64,000 nt of DNA from an uncultured Alphaproteobacteria bacterium (GTDB taxonomy: Bacteria > Pseudomonadota > Alphaproteobacteria > Rhodobacterales > Rhodobacteraceae). Shown piece after piece: positions 7,535 to 61,482 of this stretch. The first letter of the stretch is position 1. Every line of letters begins with the position of its first letter. Both the position numbers and the translations under genes were made by a program. Under the pieces are notes generated by a model, which saw only the letters and a program-made list of their open reading frames with translations, searched no databases and was not told the DNA's origin. Location of the stretch: positions 62,001 through 126,000 of the forward strand of contig CACBAM010000007.1 in NCBI GenBank assembly GCA_902537215.1. The letters run 5' to 3'.

Positions 7535-7924
7535 TCAGAGATAATTTAAAATATGTCTATCACCATCAATATATGTAAAGTTTTTCAGTTGAGTATGTGG
7601 CACCCATTTAAACTCTGAATGAACATTTAGACTGATTTGACCAGATAATATAATTGCATAATAATAGTGGACATAAATATTTTTATCTGTCTTATTCAAG
7701 TCAATAGTTGCTATCATATTACCAACTTTGATATTCAGAGAAAGTTCTTCTTTAATTTCCCTTATCAGAGCAGAAGTGAAAGTCTCGTTTTCTTCGACTT
7801 TTCCCCCTGGAAACTCCCATATTCCCTGGGAATTATCTTCAAAACTTCTGTTTGCAATAAGAAATAAATCATTTTTCATAATCACTGCCGCAACTACATC
7901 AATGCTCGCTTTATGTATAGACAT
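7535..7924 (-). CDS. MutT-type Nudix hydrolase
   Basis: A 129-residue Nudix protein. The Nudix box is seen as GGKVEENETF followed by REIKEEL (about residues 40-61), with all signature glutamates. Preceding it is the WEFPGGK segment usual in MutT-type (d)NTP diphosphatases that remove oxidised nucleotides such as 8-oxo-dGTP. It starts two bases after the stop of the MFS gene, so both probably share one mRNA. Substrate is not proven by the motif alone; other nucleoside diphosphate derivatives are possible. Confidence 0.88.
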   Translation of the reverse strand: MSIHKASIDVVAAVIMKNDLFLIANRSFEDNSQGIWEFPGGKVEENETFTSALIREIKEELSLNIKVGNMIATIDLNKTDKNIYVHYYYAIILSGQISLNVHSEFKWVPHTQLKNFTYIDGDRHILNYL

Positions 7925-7926
7925 CT

Positions 7927-9105
7927 TTAAAACCTTGTTTTCATTTTAAAGATAAAGAGCAATGAAAAAAAAGGACATACAGACAAAGCTAACAAAAAAA
8001 TAATTAAACTATTCATATTTTCGTGAAATATTCCTGATAAAAAAGGCGCACATGCCATCCCCAGCGCAGTAGGAGCCCATATGTATCCTTTAACTCTCCC
8101 AATAACTTGTGGCTCAAAAAATAAATTTGGGACATATCCACCTGTTACAGTCAGCAAGCCATGACCCATACCAAAAAGAGCCATAGCGATAATACATACA
8201 TAGAAGTTGGGTATAAGTATTATGATTAATGATAACGGTACAATTGCGCTAGCTACTAGGCCTGTAAGTCTAGCATCAAGAAATGTGGCAAACTTCATCT
8301 CTAAAAAGCGACCTACTAGCTGAAACGGTCCATATACACTCGCTAATACGATTGCAATTGAAGGATCATTAAAATTTGAGTTAAAAAACTGAATTAATGA
8401 CAGCGCAGTGGTAGAAAAAATTAAATATTCTGTAAACCCAAAAATCATCAAAATAGTAATTATGACTTTTTCTTTTTTAGACAATCTTAAGGGAACAAGA
8501 TCTATGATTGGTTTTTTAGCCTCATTTTTCTTCTCATCGTTTTTAAAGTTTAAATTTATAAAAAAATATACCGCCATTAGAAATAAAGATAACGACAGAA
8601 GCAAAAATATTGAATCCAGCCCACAATAGTTGCGTAAAAAACCGATAGTCAACCAACAGACTGAACTTGCGATAGCGCCATAAAATGTGATTATGGTAAT
8701 ATTCTTTCGTGAGTTTTGGTCATTTAGTTGAATTGCCGTGCTAAAAGCTACGTTATAAGTCGCTGAACTGAAACTTATTCCTATCAGCAGCATTGAAAAC
8801 AAAAATCCTAATAAGTCCTTAGTAAAATAAAGCGAGATAAACCCTATTGATCCTATAAAGAGCCCAGTCGAAAGAACTTTCAACCCTCCAGATCTGTCAA
8901 TTAAATAACCAACATAACTGGAAATAAGTACATTTATAAACAAAGATAGACTGACTATCATGGTAGTCGTCTCAAGGGACATCCCCAGTTTTTCAGCTAA
9001 CTCTACTTTGATTTGCGCAAAAGAATAAAACATCGCACCGTAGGCAATGATCTGACTTATACCCAGACTATGAACTGGAACAAAGCCTCCCAAGGTACGT
9101 TTCAT
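7927..9105 (-). CDS. MFS transporter
   Basis: A 392-residue inner-membrane protein with about twelve hydrophobic segments and the major facilitator layout. An MFS loop-2/3 motif occurs as GYLIDRSGGLKVL near residue 62. Residue 190 onward is a charged cytoplasmic loop (KNDEKKNEAKK), dividing two six-helix halves. It resembles monocarboxylate/OFA-like carriers but no substrate can be named. It is the first gene of a pair with the Nudix hydrolase and is preceded by the GFA gene 18 bases upstream on the same strand. Confidence 0.85.
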   Translation of the reverse strand: MKRTLGGFVPVHSLGISQIIAYGAMFYSFAQIKVELAEKLGMSLETTTMIVSLSLFINVLISSYVGYLIDRSGGLKVLSTGLFIGSIGFISLYFTKDLLGFLFSMLLIGISFSSATYNVAFSTAIQLNDQNSRKNITIITFYGAIASSVCWLTIGFLRNYCGLDSIFLLLSLSLFLMAVYFFINLNFKNDEKKNEAKKPIIDLVPLRLSKKEKVIITILMIFGFTEYLIFSTTALSLIQFFNSNFNDPSIAIVLASVYGPFQLVGRFLEMKFATFLDARLTGLVASAIVPLSLIIILIPNFYVCIIAMALFGMGHGLLTVTGGYVPNLFFEPQVIGRVKGYIWAPTALGMACAPFLSGIFHENMNSLIIFLLALSVCPFFSLLFIFKMKTRF

Positions 9106-9123: not shown

Positions 9124-9537
9124 TTAGTTTTTCTTAGGGGGTCTTTTATCAAAGGAAGTTAAATGTTCAGGAATGTGGTGATAGTCTTTGATATCACAAG
9201 TAAATATTGCGAAATCGGGAGAAAAGACTTCAGGTGTATCAAGAGTACCCACCTTAACAATAAATGAGCCTGGTCTCGAGGGACTAATGCTTCCAAAACC
9301 AGTTCCACACTTATCGCAAAAAAACCTCTTAACTGGTGTTTCTAGATCTTTTCTAGCGAAGACCGAGGGTTTTCCTTTTGTAAACTGGAAATCATCCTCT
9401 GAAAAAACCATAACAATATTTGCATTTCCACCGGTTATATACTGGCACTCACGACAGTGACATTGGAAACTAGCTTGCAATTCTCCATTAATTTCATATT
9501 GAATATCACCACAATAGCATTTTCCACTAAGTTCCAT
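9124..9537 (-). CDS. GFA (glutathione-dependent formaldehyde-activating) family protein
   Basis: Small 137-residue zinc protein. Cysteines C7, C9, C26, C28 and C31 (CYC, then CHCREC) and a later CDKCG pair form the CENP-V/GFA zinc-binding pattern. Family members bind glutathione or its S-hydroxymethyl adduct, but many have unproven activity. The gene lies first in a same-strand run with the MFS and Nudix genes. It could be a detoxification enzyme for aldehydes produced by the many demethylating flavoproteins; that is inference. Confidence 0.85.
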   Translation of the reverse strand: MELSGKCYCGDIQYEINGELQASFQCHCRECQYITGGNANIVMVFSEDDFQFTKGKPSVFARKDLETPVKRFFCDKCGTGFGSISPSRPGSFIVKVGTLDTPEVFSPDFAIFTCDIKDYHHIPEHLTSFDKRPPKKN

Positions 9538-9576: not shown

Positions 9577-10908
9577 TCACTCTATAAAGGCTCTAGCAAT
9601 AGCCCCAATTGAACAGTAAAAAACGTCTCTTTCCCAACCAGGAGAAAGAAACATGCCATTTGCTGTCGTACTCTCTGTAGGCACCCTTCCTTTTTCTTCG
9701 CCGGTAATTGTATCGAAAACGACAATATTGTCATAGCCGGTACGAAAGTCATTCACTGCAATCTCCCTCGTATCGCTGTACATTACCATTTGCATAGAAA
9801 TTCTAGTAGGCTTTTCCCATAATTTCTTAAAACCCAGATCTTTTGAGTAATTCAAACCCGCTAGCAAGCCATTTCCTGTGTCAAACGCTATTGCGACTTT
9901 ATGAATGGGATCAAATGCTGGGGGGCTAAAAATGCTTCCTCGTTGTTTATCAAAAGGCTGTACAAACTCTAATTTTTTATCATTTTTTATATCAACTCGA
10001 AATAATTTTTGTGGCGATGATGATAACCCTTGAAAAACAGACCCTCTAGCTGGAAGGTCTTGACCAAATGGTCTTGTAGAAAATATAGTCACATTAGCTC
10101 TATTATCGCCATTATCTAAAAACCAACATCCGCCATCACTTATACAGCTATCCCAACTAAAACTTTGTTCCTCATAATTGAGTGTTCTATATTTTGGCAT
10201 CCAACTCTGATCTAAAGTCAAGCTCCCTTTTTCGTATTTGTATCTAAAGAAAGTGTCTCGCCCTGGAACATATATCCATTGTGTTCCCTGTGTATCAATA
10301 TCCATGGCTATTCTACCCATCGAGTTTTCATCAATGGCAATTTCATCTGCAACCTGATTAAGAAACTCTGGTTCTAAAATAACAAATTTTGACTTTGCAT
10401 CCCATGCATGCTCGATATTTTTCATGACAAGGTTTCCATCTTTCATAATCAAAAAACTGTTATATGCAGAGTTTTGTGGTAATTTTTTTGAAGATACCAC
10501 TTTACAATCTGGATCCAGTTTATAACAATAATTTCCGTTATTGAGATAGAGATAGCCATTTTCATGCACAACAACACCACCACACCAAGTATGGCCTCCA
10601 GATGGTAAATTAGGTGAACGCGAGATACATTCTAGAGAATGAGGATCTATCTTTTCTAAAAAGCCATATTTTTCAGTAGAATTAATATGGTTGTTTCCCA
10701 TCAAAAAAACTTCTCCAGGATCTCTAAGAACCATCATTACATTCCATTCACCATTTGCCCTTGTTTTTTGAGATAAATATTCGCCGTTGCTAATATTTAA
10801 TCCAGGTGATCTAGGTATTTTTTGTCTTCTAGGACCGCCACATTCAGCGGGCCAAGGGCTATCATAGTACCCTTTTATTTTTTCGTTTGAGTCTAAATTT
10901 AAGTGCAT
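9577..10908 (-). CDS. Unrecognised 443-residue protein, probable beta-propeller
   Basis: I do not recognise a named family. The sequence has repeated strand-turn units with aspartate/glycine turns (for example VHENGYLYLNNGN, IDTQGTQWIYVPG, DTITGEEKG) such as occur in quinoprotein- or SMP30-like beta-propellers. There is no signal peptide, so it appears cytoplasmic. Tryptophan- and cysteine-containing segments GGHTWCGGVV and SWDSCISDGGCWF may lie at the active face. Its ATG directly abuts the TAA of the acyl-CoA ligase upstream (TAAATG), so the two are translationally coupled and probably act together on one acid or acyl-CoA. Confidence 0.7.
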   Translation of the reverse strand: MHLNLDSNEKIKGYYDSPWPAECGGPRRQKIPRSPGLNISNGEYLSQKTRANGEWNVMMVLRDPGEVFLMGNNHINSTEKYGFLEKIDPHSLECISRSPNLPSGGHTWCGGVVVHENGYLYLNNGNYCYKLDPDCKVVSSKKLPQNSAYNSFLIMKDGNLVMKNIEHAWDAKSKFVILEPEFLNQVADEIAIDENSMGRIAMDIDTQGTQWIYVPGRDTFFRYKYEKGSLTLDQSWMPKYRTLNYEEQSFSWDSCISDGGCWFLDNGDNRANVTIFSTRPFGQDLPARGSVFQGLSSSPQKLFRVDIKNDKKLEFVQPFDKQRGSIFSPPAFDPIHKVAIAFDTGNGLLAGLNYSKDLGFKKLWEKPTRISMQMVMYSDTREIAVNDFRTGYDNIVVFDTITGEEKGRVPTESTTANGMFLSPGWERDVFYCSIGAIARAFIE

Positions 10909-12450
10909 TTATTTCCCAAGATATGCATATTTGTCTCGCAAGACATGTTTTGTAATCTTACCTCCAGCGTTTCGTGGCAGGCTATCTACGACGTGAAATG
11001 TTTTTGGTATTTTAAAACCAGCCAACTGCGACCTCAAAGATGACCTCACCTCTATCTCTGAAAAATTATCGCTATTAACGATGACTAGAGCTATAACAGC
11101 TTCTCCCCACTTGGGGTCTGAAACCCCAATTACAGCACAGTCGATAATGGAAGGTTGCAACATTAAAGCATTTTCAACTTCTGCAGGATAAACATTTTCT
11201 CCACCTGTTATAATAAGATCTTTTATCCGATCTCTGATAAACAGATATCCCTCTTCATCGAGATACCCAGCATCACCTGTGTAAAACCAGCCATCATTTA
11301 TTGCCTCGTTAGTCGCCTTTTCTCTGTTAAAGTAGCCATCCATTATTTGATCGGTACGGCATATAATCTCCCCGATAGTTTTGGCAGGAACTTCATTATC
11401 ATGAGCATCAACTATTTTTATCTCTGAGTTGCTGAAACATTTTCCACATGATTCTAGCCTTCTGTTTGCTTTTAATTCGCTCGGGTCTAAAGACATAAAC
11501 ATGCCAGTTGTTTCAGTCATTCCATAGACGTGAGTAAAATTTGAGTTCGGAAATATTATTTGCGCACGCTTTAACGTATCAACAGCCATTGGTGATGCAC
11601 CAAAAACAATGTTTTTAACATTTTCAAATACTTTATTATTTTTTTCAGCAGCTATAACTACCATTTGAATTACAGCTGGAACCATCAGAGTGGTTGCTAC
11701 ATTATAGTTCTCAATAATATCCAAAATCTTCTCAGGATTTATATCTACCAGTAAAATATTTTCACATCCTGATGCAAGCCCAAAGAAAAGCCACGCACTT
11801 CCCGCTATATGAAACAGTGGCATACAAACAAGATTAACAGCGTTGGGATCGAATGGCCCTAAGTTATTCATTCCATTAGCAATTAAAGACATAATTCCTT
11901 TTTGAGAAATCAAAGCGCCTTTGGGATTACCTGTTGTACCCGAAGTATACATTTGAAAAAGTGGGGTTTTAGTAGCTTTATTTACAGATAATGATACATC
12001 AAATTCACCTGGACTTTTCGACTTTAATAAATTTCTTAGTTCACTTATTCCAAAAGAAAGGTGTAAGTCAGTTTTGTCGGCATTAAGTTTTTCTACTAGC
12101 TCTTTAAATTCCTCACCAAAAATAATAATTTTTGAGCCAGAGTCTTGTACTATGAACTTTACTTCTTCATACGCAAGCCTGAAATTTATTGGAACCATAA
12201 CAAGTTCAAGAATGGATGAAGCGTACATTAGCTCTATAAATTCAGAAGAATTTTTTGCCAAAAAAGCTATTCGGTCGCCAGATGTAACTTTATTTTTTTT
12301 TAATAATCCAACAAAAGATAATACTTTTGATAATATGTCAGAGTTTGTATAGCTTATACCATCTATCGATAGAGACACATTGTCTGGATTATTTTTTACG
12401 TGATAATCTAAAATTTTATGGACTTGAGCAAGCTTTTTTATCTCTTCCAT
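10909..12450 (-). CDS. Acyl-CoA synthetase / acid-CoA ligase (AMP-forming)
   Basis: A 513-residue ANL-superfamily ligase that would activate a carboxylic acid to acyl-AMP and then acyl-CoA. The P-loop YTSGTTGNPKGA is near residue 170, the A5 motif YGMTETTG near 320, the A7-A8 region YTGDAGYLDEEG with RDRIKDLIITGGEN near 400-425, and the catalytic lysine in GGKITK near residue 500. Length fits medium- or long-chain fatty acid, or aromatic acid, ligases; the substrate is not readable. It is the upstream partner of the coupled unknown beta-propeller gene. Confidence 0.9.
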   Translation of the reverse strand: MEEIKKLAQVHKILDYHVKNNPDNVSLSIDGISYTNSDILSKVLSFVGLLKKNKVTSGDRIAFLAKNSSEFIELMYASSILELVMVPINFRLAYEEVKFIVQDSGSKIIIFGEEFKELVEKLNADKTDLHLSFGISELRNLLKSKSPGEFDVSLSVNKATKTPLFQMYTSGTTGNPKGALISQKGIMSLIANGMNNLGPFDPNAVNLVCMPLFHIAGSAWLFFGLASGCENILLVDINPEKILDIIENYNVATTLMVPAVIQMVVIAAEKNNKVFENVKNIVFGASPMAVDTLKRAQIIFPNSNFTHVYGMTETTGMFMSLDPSELKANRRLESCGKCFSNSEIKIVDAHDNEVPAKTIGEIICRTDQIMDGYFNREKATNEAINDGWFYTGDAGYLDEEGYLFIRDRIKDLIITGGENVYPAEVENALMLQPSIIDCAVIGVSDPKWGEAVIALVIVNSDNFSEIEVRSSLRSQLAGFKIPKTFHVVDSLPRNAGGKITKHVLRDKYAYLGK

Positions 12451-12479
12451 AGTTTACCCAAAGATTATAAGGAGCGCAT

Positions 12480-12800
12480 TTAGTTAACTGAAAGCTCGGT
12501 AGATGTAATTTCCGAGTCATAATTATAAACAAAAATTCCAGAAAAATTGGTCTCCTTGTAAACAAAGGTATCCTTTAGCTCACTAAAAAACCCTGTCGAA
12601 TGCTCTTCAAATTTTTTTAAATCGCCTCCAGTTTCAAATTTTAGTGATATAGAAACACTTCCGCATTGACCGATCGAAATATTTAATGATCTAATATTGA
12701 AAGCTACTATTTTTTTTCCAAGGTTTTCCGAACAAAAAGTTGCAGCAACCTTTGCTTCACTAAGGCCTGGGAATTTTAAATTGTACACTTTTGCATACAT
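12480..12800 (-). CDS. Hypothetical protein, 106 residues
   Basis: No family recognised. The protein is soluble, with alternating beta segments (MYAKVYNLKF, VSISLKFETG) and one helix (GLSEAKVAATFCSENLG), which could make a ferredoxin-like alpha-beta fold. It starts four bases after the GAF protein ends, and 29 bases precede the ligase start, so it belongs to the same transcript as both. Its function may be tied to the GAF sensor. Confidence 0.65.
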   Translation of the reverse strand: MYAKVYNLKFPGLSEAKVAATFCSENLGKKIVAFNIRSLNISIGQCGSVSISLKFETGGDLKKFEEHSTGFFSELKDTFVYKETNFSGIFVYNYDSEITSTELSVN

Positions 12801-12804
12801 TGCT

Positions 12805-13626
12805 CTAATTTAACTCCTTCATCATTTCGTCTATCATTACGCTGGCATCATCACCAGTTATTTTAACCTTTTTCATCAGCCTTGCCTCAAGCCGCATATC
12901 TCTCTGTAACTCAATGCCCTTTGATGTCATTTGAATATCTCCGGAAGTATCAAACTTGCATAGCCCGGCTGCTTCAAGAGGTTTAACACTTGAATCGGCT
13001 AAATTCAGACCAGCTGACAAAGACACAAATGACTCAAAATCATCTATGTTTAAAGCTTCATCGAATTTCTTAAACTTCGCTACAGCTTCTAGCATATTTT
13101 GCGATGTCATTTGCTTTTGTTCGGTCTTTACATCCAGTAAATGAGCAATACTACTACTGATTTTCTTAATGAGTTGAACCTGTCCTTCGTTTAGGGACTT
13201 GGGCCCACTCCTATCAAACATACAAAGGGTTCCCAGTGCAAAATTATCTTTGTTGACTACTGGAAATCCTGCATATCCCCAAGATTCAGCCTTTGGATGA
13301 GATTTCCAAACAGGATCTTTTGAAATATCATGCATCAATAATGGCTCAGTATCTAGTAAAACAAATGAACATATATTGTGCTCCGTACGCAAATTTTTGC
13401 TCCCTGGCTTGAAATCATCGGTTTCTCTTCCCGTCATTGCGATAGCGCACTGCATCTCTCCATCATATAAGCTGAAAGTTGCGTCTGTAAAACCTGTGAT
13501 GTCTTTTGCCAAATCACAATATACCTGAAATAAATCTGGATTGGGGCTTTCGATTAAACCCGTTTTCACAACTGCCTTCGCTCTCTGTTCTTCATTTGCG
13601 GGTCTCGGCGCTAATCCTATTGACAT
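12805..13626 (-). CDS. GAF domain protein with a C-terminal winged-helix-like region
   Basis: A 273-residue soluble protein. A GAF domain covers about residues 25-165, with the motifs TEHNICSF, DISKDPVW, WGYAGFPVVN and ALGTLCMFD, close to GAF domains in cytosolic sensor proteins. The remainder (about 170-273) has helices followed by LCKFDTSGDIQMTSKG, which reads like the wing of a winged helix; DNA binding is therefore possible but inferred. It heads the operon running through the 106-residue protein, the acyl-CoA ligase and the propeller, and a palindrome lies just upstream, so it could be a ligand-responsive regulator of that operon. Confidence 0.75.
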   Translation of the reverse strand: MSIGLAPRPANEEQRAKAVVKTGLIESPNPDLFQVYCDLAKDITGFTDATFSLYDGEMQCAIAMTGRETDDFKPGSKNLRTEHNICSFVLLDTEPLLMHDISKDPVWKSHPKAESWGYAGFPVVNKDNFALGTLCMFDRSGPKSLNEGQVQLIKKISSSIAHLLDVKTEQKQMTSQNMLEAVAKFKKFDEALNIDDFESFVSLSAGLNLADSSVKPLEAAGLCKFDTSGDIQMTSKGIELQRDMRLEARLMKKVKITGDDASVMIDEMMKELN

Positions 13627-13644
13627 TGTTCTCTCCTTTATAAC

Positions 13645-13661
13645 AGTTTATATTGTAAACT
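13645..13661. promoter_or_regulatory. Palindrome in divergent intergenic region, candidate operator
   Basis: AGTTTA (13645-13650), five-base spacer, TAAACT (13656-13661), an exact inverted repeat. It lies 19 bases upstream of the GAF gene start and about 93 bases upstream of the DUF1330 gene, where an operator for either promoter would be expected. A second short dyad GTTG-TT-CAAC follows within 20 bases. Binding is not demonstrated. Confidence 0.35.
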
Positions 13662-13754
13662 AAAAAACTGGTTGTTCAACTTTATCTTAAAGTATTAGTA
13701 TACAAAGTTCGATATTGTTCTTAAATTCAAACAAACAATTTTTTAGAGGATAAA

Positions 13755-14051
13755 ATGTCAAAAAAAATCTATCAAGTAGTTATCTACAAATCAATTTCTG
13801 ATGAAGAAAAGTTGGCGAAATACGCAGCTTTGGCAGGACCAGCAATTAAAGGAGCCGGGGGCAAGTTTCTTGCTAGAGGAATTCCTGTTATGACAAAAGA
13901 AAGTGGTGAAAAAACGCGGACAGTTGTTTTGGAGTGGGAAAGCTTAGAGCACGCAGAAAATGGCTATAATAGCGAAGGATACCAAGAAGCATTAAGAGCT
14001 TTGGATGGGGCAGCCATCCGTGAATTTAGATATGTCGAGGCGGCAGAATAA
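13755..14051 (+). CDS. DUF1330 family protein
   Basis: A 98-residue protein of the dimeric alpha-beta barrel type. Family features are KYAALAGPAIKGAGGKFLARG in the middle region, read here in two parts around residue 30, then VVLEWESLEHAENGYNS and REFRYVEA at the end. No enzyme activity is established for most members. It begins after a clear TTAGAGGA ribosome site. It is followed by a MATE exporter 43 bases downstream on the same strand. Confidence 0.88.
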   Translation: MSKKIYQVVIYKSISDEEKLAKYAALAGPAIKGAGGKFLARGIPVMTKESGEKTRTVVLEWESLEHAENGYNSEGYQEALRALDGAAIREFRYVEAAE

Positions 14052-14071
14052 GTCATTTTCTTAATCTATTT

Positions 14072-14077
14072 TATAAT
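14072..14077 (+). promoter_or_regulatory. Candidate -10 box TATAAT ahead of the MATE gene
   Basis: A perfect TATAAT lies 17 bases before the TTG start at 14095. No good -35 box was found. If used, the mRNA leader would be only about ten bases and have no ribosome site, consistent with the absence of a visible Shine-Dalgarno before this gene. Confidence 0.25.
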
Positions 14078-14094
14078 ACAATTGTGACACGCAA

Positions 14095-15453
14095 TTGAGA
14101 GAACATCTACTATCAACTTTTAAGCTTTCTTTACCATTAATAATCGCACAAATAGCTCAGTTAGGCTTAGGGCTAACCGACGTTGCGATGATTGGTTGGT
14201 ATGGGACCAGTGAATTAGCTGCCTTAACCCTCGGACATACATGCCTCTTCTTTATATATATAACTCTCACTGGCTTTTCACTTGCTGTTATTACAAATGT
14301 ATCAAGAGCTTTTGGTAAGGAAAATACAGAAGCACTTAGAATTAATTTCAGAATGGGTCTGTGGCTAATTTTTGCCTTTTCCCTGTTTGGTTTGGCTTTA
14401 GTGAGCAAAACTTCAGCATTTCTTACATTTTTAGAACAGGATGAATACATTGTTGAAATAGTATCTGAATATATTCAAATAGTTCAGTGGATGATGCCAT
14501 TTTTACTACTCACATATGTAATAAAGGCATTTTTGATATCTGTAAAAAAGCAGCAGGTTGTTCTTTTCATTTCTATCTTGGGCTTAATCACGAACTTTAT
14601 ATTTAATTATCTATTTATCTTTGGCAACTTTGGACTCCCGGAATTAGGGATCACTGGCGTCGCGTGTTCTTCACTTTTAACCAGTATTTGCATGATGCTC
14701 TCTGGGCTTTTGTACATTCATCTTTCTGATTTGAAAGAAAAGCAAATTTTTAAAGATTTTTTTGTTTTCGATAATGAAATCTTTAAAAATCTTTTCAAAC
14801 TCGGTTGGCCGATATGTTTGACAATAATGGCCGAAAGTGGAATGTTTTCATTTGCTTCTATTTTAATGGGTTGGATTGGAGACGTAGAATTAGCAGCCCA
14901 CGGTATTTCCATAACGGTATTCGCACTTTTTTTCATGATACCACTAGGAATCTCCCAAGCTGGCACGGTCATTATTGCCAAAACAATAGGAGCCAATGAG
15001 TTAAGCAAGTTGGACCAAGCAGCTTCCTCTGTCTATTTTCTTGGCCTTGGGTGGGCACTTCTCAATACCTTCCTAATAATATTTTTTGGTGATTTTATAA
15101 TCTCTTTATTTTTGAATAGTAATGATTTAAATGTTGAAAAGGTTGCGTTTTATGCAGGAATTTTTCTCTTCGTTGGTTGTTTTTTCCATTTAGCTGACAG
15201 TGGACAAATACTTTTTGCTGCACTCTTGAGAGGATTCTCAGATACAAAGAAACCCTTCATAATTTCTTTTTTTTCTTATTGGACTATAGGTATCCCTGCT
15301 GCATATTTTCTTTCTCAAAAAACTTCATTGGCCGGCTCAGGAGTTTATTACGGCATTGGACTAGGTTTATTAGTTTGTTCTATCCTTCTTTTTTTTAGAT
15401 TTGTTAAAATTAAGGGTGAAAAGAAATCTACTTTGGAACGTTTAAAGATATGA
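14095..15453 (+). CDS. MATE family efflux transporter
   Basis: A 452-residue inner-membrane protein with twelve predicted helices in two similar halves. The first helix LIIAQIAQLGLGLTDVAMIG is typical of the NorM/DinF group, and the second half repeats it as ICLTIMAESGMFSFASILMG around residue 240. Such proteins export cationic or amphipathic compounds in exchange for Na+ or H+. The start is TTG; no ATG or GTG is available before the first helix, and no ribosome site is obvious. Substrate unknown. Confidence 0.9.
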   Translation: MREHLLSTFKLSLPLIIAQIAQLGLGLTDVAMIGWYGTSELAALTLGHTCLFFIYITLTGFSLAVITNVSRAFGKENTEALRINFRMGLWLIFAFSLFGLALVSKTSAFLTFLEQDEYIVEIVSEYIQIVQWMMPFLLLTYVIKAFLISVKKQQVVLFISILGLITNFIFNYLFIFGNFGLPELGITGVACSSLLTSICMMLSGLLYIHLSDLKEKQIFKDFFVFDNEIFKNLFKLGWPICLTIMAESGMFSFASILMGWIGDVELAAHGISITVFALFFMIPLGISQAGTVIIAKTIGANELSKLDQAASSVYFLGLGWALLNTFLIIFFGDFIISLFLNSNDLNVEKVAFYAGIFLFVGCFFHLADSGQILFAALLRGFSDTKKPFIISFFSYWTIGIPAAYFLSQKTSLAGSGVYYGIGLGLLVCSILLFFRFVKIKGEKKSTLERLKI

Positions 15454-15547: not shown

Positions 15548-17380
15548 ATGGCAGAGAACGTCGTTCAATTAAATAAATCTTCTCAGCAAGACATAGACAG
15601 AAAAATCGCAGTTATTTTTGTTACTGACGTTGTTGGTTTCAGCAAATCTATGGAAATAAATGAAGAAGAAACCTTACGTAGCTTTAGAGCTTGCCAGGAA
15701 ATCTTAGATAAACTGTTTGACGAACATGGCGGGAGAATTTTTAATACGGCAGGAGATTCTGTATTAGCTGAATTTCAAAGTGCCGTCTCTGCTGTGGTTT
15801 GTGCTAATGAATTTCAAAAATTAATTAAGGAGAGAAATAAGTCAGTTTCTGAAGAATCCCAAATGAGCTTCCGGATAGGTTTGAATATGGGTGATGTGAT
15901 AATTGAAGGAGATAATCTTTACGGTGAGGGTGTAAATGTAGCCGCGAGACTTGAGGCTCTCTCACAAGCCAATGGGATATGTGTATCAAAAAGCATAGTT
16001 GACTTTGTAAATAAGAAGACAGAACTGCTATTCAATGATCTTGGTGAACAAAAGGTTAAAAACACTGAGGTCCATGCCTATGATATTGCTGATCCTGATC
16101 TTAAAGTTAGAGAAAAAAATGACAAAAAACTTGCAGAGGCTGCAGCGGAAAAAATTACAAAAACAAGTAAAGCGCCATCAGTAGCGGTACTTCCATTTTT
16201 GAATCTAAGCAATGATCCCGAGCAAGATTTCTTCGTTGATGGGATCACTGAGGACATTATTTCATATCTGTCTAAGTTAAAAACATTCCCAATTATTTCA
16301 ATTAATTCAGTAATCTCTTACAAAGATACAAAGGATCCCACTCAAAAAATAGCTTCTGAGTTAGGTGTAAGTTATTTAGTTCAAGGAAGTATTAGAAAAG
16401 GTGGCAATAAAGTTAGAATAATGGCAAAGCTTACGGATGCCGTTGAAGATACACAAATTTGGTCACAAACATGGGATCGATCATTAGATGATGTCTTTGA
16501 AGTTCAGGATGAAGTGTCACAAAAATCCGCAGCGTTAATCAGTCCAGCAATCATTAATAATGAAAGAAAAAAGTTATCTGATCGAAAGATGAATGCGCTT
16601 AGTAGCTGGGATGAGTATTTACAAGCCGTGAATTCTTACGCACTTATGAATTCTTCGAAGACTACTGAAGAAAAACTTATGCACATTTATAAATCTTTGG
16701 AACATGGGGAAAAAGCAACAGCGTTAGATCCAAATCATAGCTCTGCATTCAATTTGTTGGCCCAAGCCTATAATTTTTTGATTTTTGAATCCTCAGTTCA
16801 GGATAAAAGAGAAGAAAACGATAAAAAATTTAGAGAGTATACAGAAAAAGCATTTCAACTAGATCCTAAAAATCCGGACTCAATAATGAATATGGGTTTT
16901 ATCGCGTTTATTGACGAAGATAAGCAGAGGTTTGCTGACTATGTTAATAAAGCTCTAGAAGTCAACCCCCATCATTCAAGAACTCTGATGGCGAAGGGGA
17001 TGAATTTATTGGAGGAGAGTTCTTTCACAGCTGCAATTGATGCCTTTACTAGATCTGCTGAAATAGATGACTTAGCTGAAAATTATGGAGAGACGGTAAT
17101 ATTTCTATGTCATTTTGGTAACAAAGATTGGGAAAACGCGATTCAATCTTTAGAACGCGAAATGAGGGAAAATAATCATAGTAGATATTTTGGATTCAAA
17201 GCAGCTGTTTTAGCTCACCAAGGAAAAGTTGGAGAAAGCAAGGAATGGCTCTTGAAATATCAAGAAGAACGTCCTGAAATAAAAACTATTGAGGATTACA
17301 AAAGCGTTGCTCCCGACCTCAATAAGGAGATACAAGAATTAATGATTGAGGGAATGCGCCTAGCGGGTATGCCCGAGTAG
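15548..17380 (+). CDS. Class III adenylate/guanylate cyclase with TolB-like and TPR region
   Basis: A 610-residue soluble signalling protein. Residues about 18-190 form a class III cyclase domain with both metal aspartates, D27 (VTDVVGFS) and D70 (TAGDSVLAEF), and the transition-state pair in GEGVNVAARLEAL. A linker follows, then AVLPFLNLSNDPEQDFF and VQGSIRKGG, the TolB-like segment often fused to such cyclases, and then TPR-like helices to the end (WDEYLQA, KATALDP, KALEVNPHHSRT). This architecture is common in Alphaproteobacteria; the helical part probably senses a protein or cell-state signal. TAAGGA six bases before the ATG is the ribosome site. Confidence 0.93.
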   Translation: MAENVVQLNKSSQQDIDRKIAVIFVTDVVGFSKSMEINEEETLRSFRACQEILDKLFDEHGGRIFNTAGDSVLAEFQSAVSAVVCANEFQKLIKERNKSVSEESQMSFRIGLNMGDVIIEGDNLYGEGVNVAARLEALSQANGICVSKSIVDFVNKKTELLFNDLGEQKVKNTEVHAYDIADPDLKVREKNDKKLAEAAAEKITKTSKAPSVAVLPFLNLSNDPEQDFFVDGITEDIISYLSKLKTFPIISINSVISYKDTKDPTQKIASELGVSYLVQGSIRKGGNKVRIMAKLTDAVEDTQIWSQTWDRSLDDVFEVQDEVSQKSAALISPAIINNERKKLSDRKMNALSSWDEYLQAVNSYALMNSSKTTEEKLMHIYKSLEHGEKATALDPNHSSAFNLLAQAYNFLIFESSVQDKREENDKKFREYTEKAFQLDPKNPDSIMNMGFIAFIDEDKQRFADYVNKALEVNPHHSRTLMAKGMNLLEESSFTAAIDAFTRSAEIDDLAENYGETVIFLCHFGNKDWENAIQSLEREMRENNHSRYFGFKAAVLAHQGKVGESKEWLLKYQEERPEIKTIEDYKSVAPDLNKEIQELMIEGMRLAGMPE

Positions 17381-17389
17381 CTTCTTCAG

Positions 17390-18028
17390 TTATTTTTCCT
17401 GTACCACTACTGAGCTACATAATTTTGCAATGATATTTGGCGCTGAATTGGAAAAATAATTTACTGTGTCGTCTATGTATTGTTGATCGACTTTTAAGTC
17501 TAACCAAACAGTTAAAATAGCATCCCAAGCTGGACTTTTATCGCCCTTATAACCTGCTGTTTTTGGCAAACTTACTTTCATCCTATTTACATTTTTTTTG
17601 GAGTACTGAGAGGCCATATCAACTAATTCTTTCCTGAAGTCGGTTAGTTCAACATTACTAGATTTATTCATAAAAATTATAAGCTTGTAGTCTGAAACGT
17701 TACCTTCGACGGTTATTATATCCTCGGCAATTATTAACCTTACAGCACTACCATCTATAAAGACTTTTTCATCATCTTGGATATCTTTATATTCTTTAGT
17801 GGCAGCTAAAGAACGCATTGCGTTTGTGTCATCAAACCAAATTTCTGCAATACCATCGATAGTATCTTCAAAAGTCAATTTGTCATTATAGATTGGATGA
17901 GATTGAACATATGTTCCCACAAGTGGAGATCTAGTTACAATTTCAGCATGTTCATTTTTCCAGTAATTCTGGAACTTTTCATATGTTAGACCTTGTTTTT
18001 TCTTAATAATTGTAATTGCGTTAATCAT
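17390..18028 (-). CDS. EthD domain protein, tandem duplication
   Basis: A 212-residue protein made of two alpha-beta barrel units. The first (1-100) has the typical EthD pattern GLTYEKFQNYWKNEHAEIV; the second (110-212) is more diverged (DFRKELVDMASQYSKKN, GYKGDKSPAWDAILTVW). EthD proteins are often accessory to oxidation or degradation of small organics, with no proven general reaction. The tandem form would fold as an internal dimer. It converges with the cyclase-TPR gene, nine bases apart. Confidence 0.82.
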   Translation of the reverse strand: MINAITIIKKKQGLTYEKFQNYWKNEHAEIVTRSPLVGTYVQSHPIYNDKLTFEDTIDGIAEIWFDDTNAMRSLAATKEYKDIQDDEKVFIDGSAVRLIIAEDIITVEGNVSDYKLIIFMNKSSNVELTDFRKELVDMASQYSKKNVNRMKVSLPKTAGYKGDKSPAWDAILTVWLDLKVDQQYIDDTVNYFSNSAPNIIAKLCSSVVVQEK

Positions 18029-56969: not shown

Positions 56970-57656
56970 TTAAATTAACAAATAGCTCTTTATTAGCTTG
57001 TCATTTAGCTGATTGTATTTGCCGCTCCACGCTATTTTCCCCTTCACTAAAAAGTAAAAATGGTCCGCTAATGTAGAAAGTTTCTCTAAGGATTTATCTA
57101 CTATAATAATGGATAAGCCCGACTTCTTTAAAGTTGCCAGAACATTCCAAATCTCTTTTTGTATCAAAGGGGAAAGCCCCTCAGTTGCCTCATCTAAAAT
57201 CAATAATTTTGGGTTTGTCATTAGTGCCCGCCCAATTGATAGCATTTGCTGCTCGCCTCCAGACAAGGAACCACCTAATTGATACTTTCTATCAAGCAGT
57301 CTTGGGAACAGCTCATAAATTTTTTTTTGATCCCATTCCCCCTCTTTGGCGCTTACCAACAAATTTTCATGAACAGTAAGGTTTGAAAATATTCTTCTTC
57401 CTTCTGGCACAAGACCAATGCCGAGTTTCGCTATTTGAAAATCAATCAAATCATGTATGTCGACTGAATTGAATTTTATCAATCCGCTTTTTTCACTTAT
57501 GATACCACACACACAATGAATAAGTGTGGTCTTCCCCATACCATTTCTTCCCATCAAAGCAATAACGGATCCCTCATTAACTAGAAAATCCACTTCGGAA
57601 AGAGCAATGCTTCCACTGTAAAAAGCGCTGAGATTTTTTGTTTCAAGTAAACTCAT
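56970..57656 (-). CDS. livF: Branched-chain amino acid-type ABC transporter ATPase LivF
   Basis: A 228-residue ABC ATPase. Walker A is GRNGMGKTTLIH near residue 35, the signature LSGGEQQMLSIGRAL near 135-150 and Walker B LLILDEATEGLSP. Second ATPase of the LIV transporter, at the end of the operon. Its ATG overlaps the stop of livG by four bases (ATGA), so it is coupled. It drives uptake with LivG at the cytoplasmic face. Confidence 0.95.
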   Translation of the reverse strand: MSLLETKNLSAFYSGSIALSEVDFLVNEGSVIALMGRNGMGKTTLIHCVCGIISEKSGLIKFNSVDIHDLIDFQIAKLGIGLVPEGRRIFSNLTVHENLLVSAKEGEWDQKKIYELFPRLLDRKYQLGGSLSGGEQQMLSIGRALMTNPKLLILDEATEGLSPLIQKEIWNVLATLKKSGLSIIIVDKSLEKLSTLADHFYFLVKGKIAWSGKYNQLNDKLIKSYLLI

Positions 57657-58408
57657 AAATCGCCCCCTAAATAAGCATTTTGCACTAACTTACTCCTCCT
57701 AATCTTTTCTACACTGCCACTTTCAATAATTTCTCCTTCGTTTAGCACAGAGATTTTATCTGCTAATGCAAAAACTGCTTGCATATCATGTTCTATAAGA
57801 AATATCGGCATAATTTTTTTTATGCTTTTAAGCAATTCAATTAGCTTAGAACTCTCTGCCTGATCAAGACCTGCAAAAGGTTCATCTAATAATAATATTT
57901 TTGGACGCATCGCAAGTGCCATTGCTAACTCTAGTTTTCTTTTATCTCCATGACTTAGCGTCGACGCAACTTTTGTTCCCAGGGTTTCTAAAGATAATTG
58001 ATTTAGTGTTTGATAAACAAAACTAGATTCTGATGAGTTACTTTGAAATTTTCTAAACAGCATTTTGAGAATACTTCTTTTATGTTTTACCGCTAATAAA
58101 ATATTTTCAAATACGGTCATAGACCCAATAATTGACGACACTTGGAAGCTTCTAATACATCCACGGTGAACTCTTGCAATTTCACTTAAGTGATTGACCC
58201 TTCTATCTAGAAGCGTTACCACGCCTTGGTCTGGTTTTAGCTCTCCAGATATCATTTTTATTAAAGTAGTCTTCCCTGCTCCATTAGGACCAATAAGAGC
58301 ATGTAATTGATTTGATATCACCGTCAGACTAATATCTTTTGCAACAACAACGTTACCAAAACACTTGTTAATACCAGATAGCTTTAAAATTTCTTTTTTT
58401 TCGGCCAT
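57653..58408 (-). CDS. livG: Branched-chain amino acid-type ABC transporter ATPase LivG
   Basis: A 251-residue ABC ATPase with Walker A GPNGAGKTTLIKMISG near residue 37, signature LSHGDKRKLELAMAL near 150-165, Walker B ILLLDEPFAGLDQAE and the H-loop FLIEHDMQAV near 205. The characteristic LivG signature variant LSHGDKR (rather than LSGGQ) is present. It is coupled to livF by a four-base overlap and lies four bases after livM. Confidence 0.95.
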   Translation of the reverse strand: MAEKKEILKLSGINKCFGNVVVAKDISLTVISNQLHALIGPNGAGKTTLIKMISGELKPDQGVVTLLDRRVNHLSEIARVHRGCIRSFQVSSIIGSMTVFENILLAVKHKRSILKMLFRKFQSNSSESSFVYQTLNQLSLETLGTKVASTLSHGDKRKLELAMALAMRPKILLLDEPFAGLDQAESSKLIELLKSIKKIMPIFLIEHDMQAVFALADKISVLNEGEIIESGSVEKIRRSKLVQNAYLGGDL

Positions 58409-58412
58409 TGAC

Positions 58413-59381
58413 CTAATCTTTTATAATTAAACCTGAAACACCCTTCGGAAAATAAAGAACTATTAATACTAAAATTACGCCGAGCCAAAATTGCCAATTT
58501 TCTGTTACCTCACCAAGGAATTGCTCTAACAATATAAACACTATAGCTCCTAGCAATGGCCCAAATAGCCTGGCACTTCCTCCAAGTATAACCAAAACAA
58601 TTAATTCTCCAGAAGTTTGCCAACTTAAAGATGTTGGACTAACGAACCTATTAAGATCTACATACAATGCGCCTGCTAAACCTGTTATCGCTCCAGATAT
58701 CACAAAAGCTGTTAATTTAAGCGTATATGGATTAAGACCTAACGATCTCATTTTTTCTTCATTTTCTTTACAGCCTTTTAAAAAATTTCCAAAATTCGAA
58801 TTTATAACCCAATTCAAAATAAACCAAACAACACATAAGCAAGCGAAGCAAATAATAAAAAAGTTTAACGGAAGCATTGTGTTTATTGAAAATAGATCAT
58901 TCCTTACATATGTAGACAAACCATCTTCACCACCATATTTTGTCCAGCCTACTGAAAAATAGTAAGTCATTTGCGCGAAGGCTAAAGTAATCATTATGAA
59001 ATATACACCGCTTGTTCTTATAGAAATGCTCCCAACAACGAGGGCAAAAAACATTGAAAAAATAACAGCGAGAAACCAATTGAAGAGCATTTGACTACTA
59101 CCATTAAAATCAAAAAATATTAAATCGATGGTCTCACCGTTCATGCTATGAAAAGCACTTATCGCAGCCACGTAACTCCCTATACCGAAAAACATTGCAT
59201 GACCAAAAGACACCATGCCCCCAAATCCTAATATTAAATTTAAAGCACAGCCAGCGATCCCCAAAATAACAATTTTTGTTGCAAGAGTAATGAAGTAAGG
59301 TTCATTTATTACGTAACCAATCAAGGAAAAAGCGAAGATACCAAGGACTATAATTAGATTGAACTTTTTTTCTGTGAGCAT
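58413..59381 (-). CDS. livM: Branched-chain amino acid-type ABC transporter permease LivM
   Basis: A 322-residue permease with about nine to ten hydrophobic helices. The family segment LILGFGGMVSFGHAMFFGIG is near residue 50, and the ATPase-contact loop is GNFLKGCKENEEKMRSLGLNPYTLKLTAF near 205-235 (shown in part: RSLGLNPYTLKL). Its start overlaps the stop of livH by one base (TAATG). With LivH it forms the membrane channel. Confidence 0.95.
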   Translation of the reverse strand: MLTEKKFNLIIVLGIFAFSLIGYVINEPYFITLATKIVILGIAGCALNLILGFGGMVSFGHAMFFGIGSYVAAISAFHSMNGETIDLIFFDFNGSSQMLFNWFLAVIFSMFFALVVGSISIRTSGVYFIMITLAFAQMTYYFSVGWTKYGGEDGLSTYVRNDLFSINTMLPLNFFIICFACLCVVWFILNWVINSNFGNFLKGCKENEEKMRSLGLNPYTLKLTAFVISGAITGLAGALYVDLNRFVSPTSLSWQTSGELIVLVILGGSARLFGPLLGAIVFILLEQFLGEVTENWQFWLGVILVLIVLYFPKGVSGLIIKD

Positions 59382-60298
59382 TATTTTTTTCCAAAAAGAC
59401 CAGTGGGTCTAAATATTAACACTAGTGCCATTAAGAGATATGCACTAATAGAAGCCAGTGACGAGCCTAGGGATAAGGCTTGGGAGGTCTCCATAATAAG
59501 TTCAAAAAATATTGGGAGAAACAGTCGAGCCATAGTGTCAAGAACTCCTATTAAAAGTGCTCCAATCAATGCACCTTTAATTGAACCGATTCCACCTATT
59601 ACTATTACAACAAAAGCCAATATCAATACAGGTTCTCCCATACCAACTTCAACTGATTGGATAGCACCAATTAATGCTCCAGCCAATCCTGCTAGTGCCG
59701 CTCCCATTGCAAATACTATTGTATAAAGTCTTGATATATTTATTCCTAGAACTCTTATCATTTGTCTATCGTTCTGACCGGCTTTAATTTGAATTCCTAA
59801 TAAGGTTCTATTTATTAAAAAATATAGGCCTATGGCTATAAAAAGACCTATGATTATAATTATCAACCTGTACTTGGAGTATACTATCTCACCAGGTAAT
59901 AGAATATTTCCTTGAAGTATATTTGGAATATCCAAAAAAAGTGGAAATGCGCCAAAAATGTACCTGGTTGCCTCTGAAAATATCAAAATAAGTGCAAATG
60001 TTGCTAAAACCTGGTCAAGATGGTCACGCTCATAAAGCTTTCTAATAATTGAGGACTCGACCATTATTCCAATAAGAGCTGGAAAGATTAATGAAGCCAA
60101 AATGGCTAACAAGAAATTCCCAGTCAAACCAGCAACAAAAGAAGCGCTAAAGGCTCCTATCATGAAAAAAGAGCCATGGGCCAAGTTTATCAAGCCCATA
60201 ACTCCGAAAATCAATGTCAAACCTGCCGACATCAAAAACAGCATAAATCCAAACTGTATGCCGTTTAATAACTGCTCAATAAAGAGCTGCAAAGACAT
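59381..60298 (-). CDS. livH: Branched-chain amino acid-type ABC transporter permease LivH
   Basis: A 305-residue permease with about eight helices. MSLQLFIEQLLNGIQFG at the N-terminus and LIFGVMGLINLAHGSFFMIG near residue 30 are typical of LivH, with RMIRVLGINISRLYT as the ATPase-contact loop and GGIGSIKGALIGALLIG near 235. It is the first membrane gene of the operon, 44 bases after the binding-protein gene. Confidence 0.95.
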   Translation of the reverse strand: MSLQLFIEQLLNGIQFGFMLFLMSAGLTLIFGVMGLINLAHGSFFMIGAFSASFVAGLTGNFLLAILASLIFPALIGIMVESSIIRKLYERDHLDQVLATFALILIFSEATRYIFGAFPLFLDIPNILQGNILLPGEIVYSKYRLIIIIIGLFIAIGLYFLINRTLLGIQIKAGQNDRQMIRVLGINISRLYTIVFAMGAALAGLAGALIGAIQSVEVGMGEPVLILAFVVIVIGGIGSIKGALIGALLIGVLDTMARLFLPIFFELIMETSQALSLGSSLASISAYLLMALVLIFRPTGLFGKK

Positions 60299-60342
60299 AT
60301 TTCACATTAACCAGGCTGTTGTAGAGCTAAATACCTTATCAT

Positions 60343-61482
60343 TTACATTTTACACTGGTCTACATAGAAATTTGAATGATCTACTAGACCAGAAGAAATC
60401 AATTTATTAGTAAGAGTACCATTTTCCTCTACGACTTCTCTAACATATATGTCTTGTATGGGATGGTGATTGGAAGAAAAGGCGAACTTTCCCCTTGTCG
60501 ACTTAAAACCCTGAGTTGGAGCATTTTTTAGTGCTTCTCTAAAAGCATCCATATCCTTAATACTCGCATTTGCCATTGCTGAAACTATGATTTTGCCAGT
60601 ATCATAGCCCTGAGAGGCATATAAAGATGGCAAACGCCCATAAGCTGATTGGAAGTCTTCTACAAACTTTTTATTTTCTGCATTTTCTATATCTTTTGAC
60701 CATTGGGATGTGTTTTTTACTCCTAGAGCTGCGTTTCCAACAGCTTTTAGAATACCTTGATCAAATGAAAATGCTGGTCCAACCAGTGGCAAATCTACTT
60801 GTGCCTGAGAAAACTGTTTGATGAAGGCTATTCCCATTCCTCCAGGAAGGAAGAAATAAACGCTATCCGCCTTCGACGCTCTTATCTTTGCTATTTCCGC
60901 GGCATAATCAGTTTGACCAAGCTTTGTGTACACTTCATTCTCAATAGAACCCTTAAAATAACGTTTGTATCCTGTGAGTGCATCTTTTCCTGCTGGATAG
61001 TTAGGAGCAATTATGAAACTATTTTTAAAACCAGCCGAACTAGCGTACCCTCCTGCAGCTTCATGGAGATTATCATTTTGCCAAGCTATATTGAAATAAT
61101 TCTTGTGACATTTCTTTCCAGCTAGTAACGACGGTCCTGCGTTTGGTGAAAGATAGAACTTTCCTTGATTTACCACTGCAGGGACGACGGCCATAGCCAA
61201 GTTTGACCAAACAATACCTGTAATTATGTCAACTTTGTCCGATTGTATCATTTTATCTGCAAGTTGAACGGCAATATCGGGTTTTCTCTGGTCATCACCA
61301 GAAAATATCTCTATGTTTGGCTCATCCTTAACAGCGAGGGCAAATCCATCTCGAATATCAATTCCTAGTCCAGATCCTCCTCCTGATAAAGTAGTGATCA
61401 TTCCGACTTTAACTTTATCTCCATAAGCATGTGAAATAGTAAGTAAAAATAATATAAAAGTTGAAATTGATTTTTTAAACAT
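60343..61482 (-). CDS. LIV-type ABC transporter periplasmic substrate-binding protein
   Basis: A 379-residue periplasmic protein with a signal peptide (about residues 1-21, FILFLLTISHAYG). The mature part has the type I binding fold: VKVGMITTLSGGGSGLGIDIRDG (shown in part), FSGDDQRKPDIAVQLADKMI, and SPNAGPSLLAGKKCHKNYF. GGAGLGIDIRDG differs from classic leucine-binding proteins, so the ligand may be an aromatic acid, amide or urea-like compound rather than a branched amino acid. A very strong GAGGGGGT ribosome site precedes the ATG. It heads the five-gene LIV operon. Confidence 0.92.
   Translation of the reverse strand: MFKKSISTFILFLLTISHAYGDKVKVGMITTLSGGGSGLGIDIRDGFALAVKDEPNIEIFSGDDQRKPDIAVQLADKMIQSDKVDIITGIVWSNLAMAVVPAVVNQGKFYLSPNAGPSLLAGKKCHKNYFNIAWQNDNLHEAAGGYASSAGFKNSFIIAPNYPAGKDALTGYKRYFKGSIENEVYTKLGQTDYAAEIAKIRASKADSVYFFLPGGMGIAFIKQFSQAQVDLPLVGPAFSFDQGILKAVGNAALGVKNTSQWSKDIENAENKKFVEDFQSAYGRLPSLYASQGYDTGKIIVSAMANASIKDMDAFREALKNAPTQGFKSTRGKFAFSSNHHPIQDIYVREVVEENGTLTNKLISSGLVDHSNFYVDQCKM

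Follow-up and report, generated by a model that had tools for sequence, protein, structure and literature searches.

The subject of this analysis is a run of same-strand genes in the window, by which we mean the whole 64,000-nucleotide (nt) stretch of contig CACBAM010000007.1 from an uncultured member of the Rhodobacteraceae. The run begins with genes for a stand-alone GAF-domain protein, a small protein (p106), a coenzyme A (CoA) ligase and a predicted beta-propeller (Table 1), which an earlier, sequence-only reading had described as a nearly contiguous four-gene operon at 9577-13626. The coordinates agree with that description, with minus-strand gaps of 4 nt between the GAF and p106 genes, 29 nt between the p106 and ligase genes and 0 nt between the ligase and propeller genes, which join at TAAATG, as had also been noted. 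The operon was, however, drawn too short: the run continues past the propeller with GFA, MFS and NUDIX genes (gaps of 39, 18 and 2 nt) and ends at 7535. Median pairwise ratios of nonsynonymous to synonymous substitution (dN/dS), calculated for the window and 11 further loci, were 0.018 for p106, 0.079 for the propeller, 0.146 for the ligase and 0.058 for the GAF gene, the last being a rough value with the synonymous distance near saturation (median dS 1.36). By these sequence comparisons, the four genes evolve as real proteins.

Table 1. Features of the same-strand run and of the adjoining spacer, with positions in the window.
Feature	Position	Strand	Description
Stand-alone GAF-domain protein	12805-13626	-	273 aa; heads the run; GAF_2
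Small protein p106	12480-12800	-	106 aa; second half of the GAF+p106 module
Predicted AMP-forming acyl-CoA ligase (ANL superfamily)	10909-12450	-	513 aa; Pfam AMP-binding and AMP-binding_C
Predicted eight-bladed beta-propeller	9577-10908	-	443 aa; start codon abuts the ligase stop
GFA-family (glutathione-dependent formaldehyde-activating-like) small protein	9124-9537	-	Pfam GFA, 3.1e-28; likely co-transcribed
MFS transporter	7927-9105	-	Pfam MFS_1, 1.4e-20; likely co-transcribed
NUDIX hydrolase	7535-7924	-	Pfam NUDIX, 4.7e-17; last gene of the same-strand run
Divergent spacer between the GAF and DUF1330 genes	13627-13754	none	Presumed promoter region; contains an imperfect palindrome

Association of the ligase and propeller genes

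Within the window's genus, the propeller was found in 17 of 22 genomes, the five without it being 64-72% complete, and the synteny that the sequence-only reading had proposed to examine is conserved: the ligase gene lies directly before the propeller gene at all 16 named genus loci (L003-L018), taken to represent the 16 propeller-bearing genomes other than the window's own, and the TAAATG junction is identical in the 14 close ones (L003-L016). At the two sister-species loci, L017 and L018, where the propeller is 77% identical, the GFA gene keeps its position (78% identity), and the MFS and NUDIX genes are also kept, at 55-56% and 46%, respectively. Retention of the block in the genus, the identical junction in close loci and the low dN/dS values together indicate that the four-gene arrangement is more than chance. 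Before the sister-species ligase come a gene for a YtkA-like protein (a Pfam assignment for L017) and genes for ATP-binding cassette (ABC) transport. Farther upstream on the same contigs (L088 of genome G308 and L089 of genome G303), the run opens with GAF and p106, followed by a binding protein (Peripla_BP_6 in L088), eight ABC genes, the YtkA-like gene and the ligase, and then by propeller, GFA, MFS and NUDIX. Nine transport genes separate p106 from the YtkA-like gene and the ligase, the distance from p106 to the ligase being ~8 kb, and GAF and p106 still come first in the run. These ABC genes were named by eye and are BLAST-similar to genes at 56970-60298 of the window, likewise named by eye. 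The window's own ABC transporter (56970-61482) was rejected as the orthologue of the L088 system: none of its four membrane and ATPase proteins matches at more than 39%, and its binding protein gives no match at 1e-5.

The ligase adjoins the propeller in three lineages, namely the window's genus, a Ramlibacter metagenome-assembled genome (MAG; L019) and a second alphaproteobacterial family (L030 of genome G505 and L047 of G1039). Identity between these lineages is 31-42% for the ligases and 39-62% for the propellers, so the association outlasts large divergence. Between hisA and hisF, the Ramlibacter MAG carries a divergent TetR gene, its propeller gene (62% identical), the ligase gene and a TctC receptor gene, as if the block had been placed there as a unit, and the gene order is reversed relative to the window, with the propeller before the ligase. 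In L030 and L047, of which the latter contig contains the ligase end only, the propeller start overlaps the ligase stop by 1 nt. Uptake genes accompany the pair in two of the three lineages (sister species and Ramlibacter), and in L030 TauD, MR_MLE and UGSC genes lie next to it. The same L030 stretch encodes two proteins of ~350 aa (13969-15063 and 16576-17622), related by eye, beside UGSC and PhyH genes; Pfam gave no match for either at E ≤ 0.1, and NCBIfam none for the first at 1e-10.

By sequence search, the propeller is rare. It was found in 2 of the 292 order genomes (the second, G061, by a partial match of E 1.3e-4 close to the end of a contig), in 3 of the 385 class genomes and, at phylum level, in none but itself (1 of 398), as well as in 2 of 14 genomes of the family of G505, 1 of 5 of that of G402, and 6 of 250 of the Ramlibacter MAG's family, the MAG included and one match being short. 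Plasmid records gave no propeller match at 1e-5, and of the 10 stretches of viral contigs that fitted a pattern, none was a relative.

The predicted ligase and propeller

Both Pfam domains of the ANL superfamily exceed their cut-offs in the window ligase (AMP-binding, 1.3e-67, 228.7 against 29.9 bits; AMP-binding_C, 8e-17, 62.4 against 24.5 bits), and the sequences YTSGTTGxPKG, YGMTE and PRNAxGK, which we take to be the functional motifs of ANL ligases, are invariant in an alignment of six ligases. The best PDB match is FadD5 (8r2q, 1.8e-75), followed by FadD13, a fatty-acyl-CoA synthase and a feruloyl-CoA synthetase. The protein is thus a predicted AMP-forming acyl-CoA ligase, sharing both domains and the motifs with known members such as FadD5, FadD13 and feruloyl-CoA synthetase; it differs from them in that its best NCBIfam subfamily model, PRK06187, gives it 455 bits against a cut-off of 476, and in being followed by the propeller at all 16 named genus loci.

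The propeller was said from the sequence alone to match no known family, and this view held: the window protein has no Pfam or NCBIfam match at E ≤ 1, including to catalogued propeller families such as SMP-30, PON and 6-phosphogluconolactonase, and no housekeeping family that would detach it from acyl metabolism turned up. When 14 members, which align with one another, were compared with family models, only weak matches of single members appeared (Kelch_1, 0.048; Arylsulfotran_2, 0.16; ScyE_fam, 0.082; TolB, 0.3), no model matching more than 2 of the 14, and PDB sequence searches gave no convincing family (best propeller E 0.09). Neither for the propeller nor for p106 was a described family found in Pfam, NCBIfam, PDB sequences and a limited, not full, literature search.

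Structure prediction with AlphaFold, another check proposed earlier, gave from a shallow alignment a first model of poor quality (pLDDT, the predicted local distance difference test, 63.7), whose fold matches were left unused, and a second model with a pLDDT of 84.2 and a predicted template modelling score (pTM) of 0.87. Its strands form, by our own assignment, eight four-stranded blades. Designed eight-bladed propellers gave Z scores of 31.5 (Cake8, 310 residues aligned) and 29.7 (Tako8, 311), and the model matches YxaL (Z 36.5 over 345 residues), Rv3035 (35.6 over 356) and tetrathionate hydrolase (28.4 over 343), which we take to be natural eight-bladed propellers. The window protein shares the overall predicted fold with these three and BamB, tetrathionate hydrolase being compared by fold alone, but is only 11-14% identical to them in those alignments and has no sequence-family match. 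It also differs from these propellers in lacking, as judged by eye, a hydrophobic N-terminal leader, and in having a CoA ligase as genomic partner in three lineages; YxaL is reportedly secreted, being so termed in the title of one paper. Among the 50 matches listed from a viral fold library, identity was low (6-13%) and most proteins were uncharacterised or of WD/BTB type. On the predicted model, the protein is an eight-bladed propeller without a described family.

The GAF+p106 module

The window GAF protein barely reaches the cut-off of Pfam GAF_2 (28.8 against 28.6 bits), a model matched by 10 of 11 GAF homologues at E ≤ 0.1 (best, 4.3e-11), and homologues occur in 21 of the 22 genus genomes. 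A profile of the 11 homologues aligns over its positions 5-147 with a diguanylate cyclase (PDB 4zmu, E 6.8e-30) and also with a metal-dependent phosphohydrolase (4mcw, E 7.8e-05). The GAF domains of these two proteins correspond to the GAF part of the window protein, which, unlike them, carries no cyclase or phosphohydrolase output domain by Pfam and has the p106 gene next to it; its C-terminal ~100 aa have no family match. For p106, the window member has no Pfam match at E ≤ 1 and a best NCBIfam match of 0.11 (this member only), and among 11 members Pfam gave two weak single-member matches (DUF915, E 0.0028; STATB_N, 0.092). The profile search proposed for this protein likewise gave no convincing PDB match (best E 1.5; 0.98 with a single sequence). 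Its beta-alpha-beta-beta-alpha-beta pattern is inferred by eye alone. An assignment to DUF1330, the family of the divergent neighbour that begins at 13755, was rejected, as none of the 11 members matches it at E ≤ 1 and hhalign against the neighbouring DUF1330 proteins gave a probability of 0.1% (E 0.44).

The p106 profile matched 7 of 289 genomes of the class at E ≤ 0.01, one of which is the window's own genome, where a second copy again has a GAF gene just before it. The two weakest matches (G562 and G545; L054 and L055) have no GAF gene and, against the final profile, one misses 0.01 and the other gives 0.0082; we took them as chance and left them out of the scored copies. In the order of G420, p106 is present in 93 of 136 genomes with up to four copies each, and from this order 30 loci and 20 longer stretches were inspected, picked by score and so as to sample several families. 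The GAF gene is immediately upstream in 30/30 of these loci (L097-L126), the match ends being 4-18 nt apart, and in all 64 scored p106 copies, with some places counted twice and one copy carrying an internal stop. Conversely, p106 stands beside 29 of 29 testable GAF matches at genus loci (L058-L087), one more being cut by a contig end. GAF and p106 distances are correlated across 58 distinct pairs (r 0.848; reached in 0 of 2000 permutations), a value that includes shared species ancestry and is therefore no proof of contact. The neighbours of the pair vary; gene clusters named by eye as aldehyde dehydrogenase-like, aminotransferase-like and ABC each recur in 5 to 7 of the 27 loci compared. On these sequence data, GAF+p106 is an independent two-gene module, separate from the ligase-propeller pair and lying beside many unrelated genes, and the 'own sensor' that the sequence-only reading had given to an acid-activating pathway belongs to that module. 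The idea of such a pathway is partly supported, an acyl-CoA ligase being next to the propeller in three lineages.

Strict pairing, several copies per genome and varied neighbours are what one would also see if GAF+p106 were a toxin-antitoxin-like or otherwise selfish pair with no sensor. We regard this as very improbable, given the very strong purifying selection on p106, the signalling fold of the GAF domain and a photolyase-linked copy that keeps its place in 11 genus loci. That copy is exemplified by the second one of the window's own genome (G000:C1 120314-121429; L090 5892-11924), with the order photolyase, a 248 aa protein, GAF, p106, a 126 aa protein and a cyclase with TPRs. Photolyase and 248-aa genes occur in 11 of the 14 genus loci with GAF copies not of the window kind (L074-L087, L086 being the window's own genome), the cyclase also in 10 of those 11 within the flank examined; L079-L081, with a third kind of copy, lack both the photolyase and the 248-aa gene. 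Photolyase was rejected as a general partner of the module, since BLAST with the photolyases of L090, L091 and L094 found none in the other 24 of 27 loci. The L090 cyclase (10116-11924) has Guanylate_cyc and TPR domains by Pfam, and related cyclases lie near GAF+p106 in L090 and L142; a similar-looking one lies near the window's pair (15548-17380). These proximities may be chance.

The palindrome reported before the window's GAF gene exists as an imperfect inverted repeat, with 25-nt arms (13660-13684 and 13722-13746) that are 80% complementary and 37 nt apart. The best inverted repeat beats dinucleotide shuffles in 4 of 14 orthologous spacers (the window, L004, L007 and L012; reached by 0 to 4 of 300), whereas in the other 10 it is equalled by 20 to 208 of 300. 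We therefore rejected the repeat as a conserved operator.

A candidate catabolic cassette and its putative sensor

From the predicted fold and genome context, we read the ligase and propeller as a portable two-protein cassette for the catabolism of an organic acid (or ester), headed in the window's genus by the GAF+p106 pair, and give this reading a probability of about one in two. An organic compound would be taken up by the LIV-type ABC system of the same run (sister species) or by a TctC-type receptor (Ramlibacter), the soluble eight-bladed propeller would process it, most likely by hydrolysis (opening of an ester or lactone) or a similar reaction, and the ligase would convert the carboxylate to a CoA thioester for central metabolism. 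The stand-alone GAF sensor and its own p106 partner would adjust the expression or activity of the neighbouring genes. Pairings, conservation, predicted fold and selection form the observed part of this reading; from them we infer one shared substrate, an enzymatic propeller and control of this operon by GAF+p106. That the propeller would be a hydrolase in particular is, taken on its own, somewhat unlikely.

Several observations weigh against the cassette. The best folds are common to many non-enzymes (BamB, WD40 proteins, the designed Tako8), and conservation favours neither propeller face: top loops scored 0.508 and bottom loops 0.485 (permutation P = 0.31; 9 of 14 alignment rows, loops assigned by us), so that it points to no active site. 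Five full-length homologues (L031 of G402, and L043-L046) are without a ligase in the stretch examined, as are the partial homologues L032 and L048. Other GAF+p106 copies adjoin unrelated genes, and both GAF and p106 are missing from the examined ligase-propeller stretches L019 and L030, the former (Ramlibacter) having TetR instead. Part of this evidence would fit a propeller that is no enzyme at all and instead serves the ligase as a scaffold or substrate-binding partner, for example tying it to a transporter or the next enzyme, for binding and scaffold propellers are among the best fold neighbours (BamB, Rv3035 in complex with FecB, WD40 proteins), conservation is not focused on one face, and the propeller start is coupled to the ligase stop, directly or with a 1-nt overlap. 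We consider such a scaffold unlikely: the gene order is reversed in Ramlibacter, and homologues in other clusters have none in the stretch examined, which argues for a propeller role independent of an adjacent ligase gene.

Four of these homologues (L043-L046), from genomes of the Ramlibacter MAG's family, are distant propellers (33-35%) in a conserved sulfatase cluster. All four loci carry relatives of the sulfatase, DSBA-like, TetR and metallo-beta-lactamase genes of L043, and three (not L044) carry those of its DUF1254/DUF1214 and Phenol_MetA_deg genes; relatives of the L045 FGE gene also occur in three (not in L043) and those of its SDR gene in two (L045 and L046). These clusters look catabolic, a point in favour of the cassette reading. 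A co-varying trio, Cys23, His106 and Cys109 (numbered with the first Met), is kept in the ligase-linked members and G402, except that Cys109 is Phe in L047; at these positions L043-L046 carry Asp, Pro and Pro.

With the cassette reading, two nameless protein families are placed in testable contexts. The propeller gains a CoA ligase partner and candidate transport systems, and p106 proves to be strictly paired with a GAF sensor, in a pair that travels through many marine bacteria and is common in an alphaproteobacterial order with small genomes. We tentatively propose that GAF+p106 may be a two-protein signalling system that has so far gone unrecognised in marine Alphaproteobacteria. In it, a stand-alone GAF sensor lacking a known output domain would pass its signal to p106 as a dedicated small partner, and several copies per genome would each be coupled to a metabolic or repair locus nearby, here to a cassette of an acyl-CoA ligase and a new type of eight-bladed propeller enzyme; if so, it would be a frequent regulatory device invisible to current annotation.

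GAF+p106, the ligase-propeller pair and GFA-MFS-NUDIX could alternatively be three unrelated units that share a strand in this genus by chance, which we think distinctly unlikely. This would leave the ligase-propeller pair of three lineages unexplained; moreover, GAF+p106 stands first in the L088/L089 run despite the nine intervening transport genes, and GFA-MFS-NUDIX also keep their place in L017 and L018. Such an origin would, however, suit the independence of the GAF+p106 module and the apparently separate exchange of the 5' part of the run. Between L010 (5266-7997) and the window (10909-13626), the GAF proteins are only 63% and the ligases 84% identical, with 97.5% for the propeller and 94-98% for the downstream genes, and the L010 GAF has an insertion in common with that of L089, which together suggest that the 5' half of the operon was exchanged between species.

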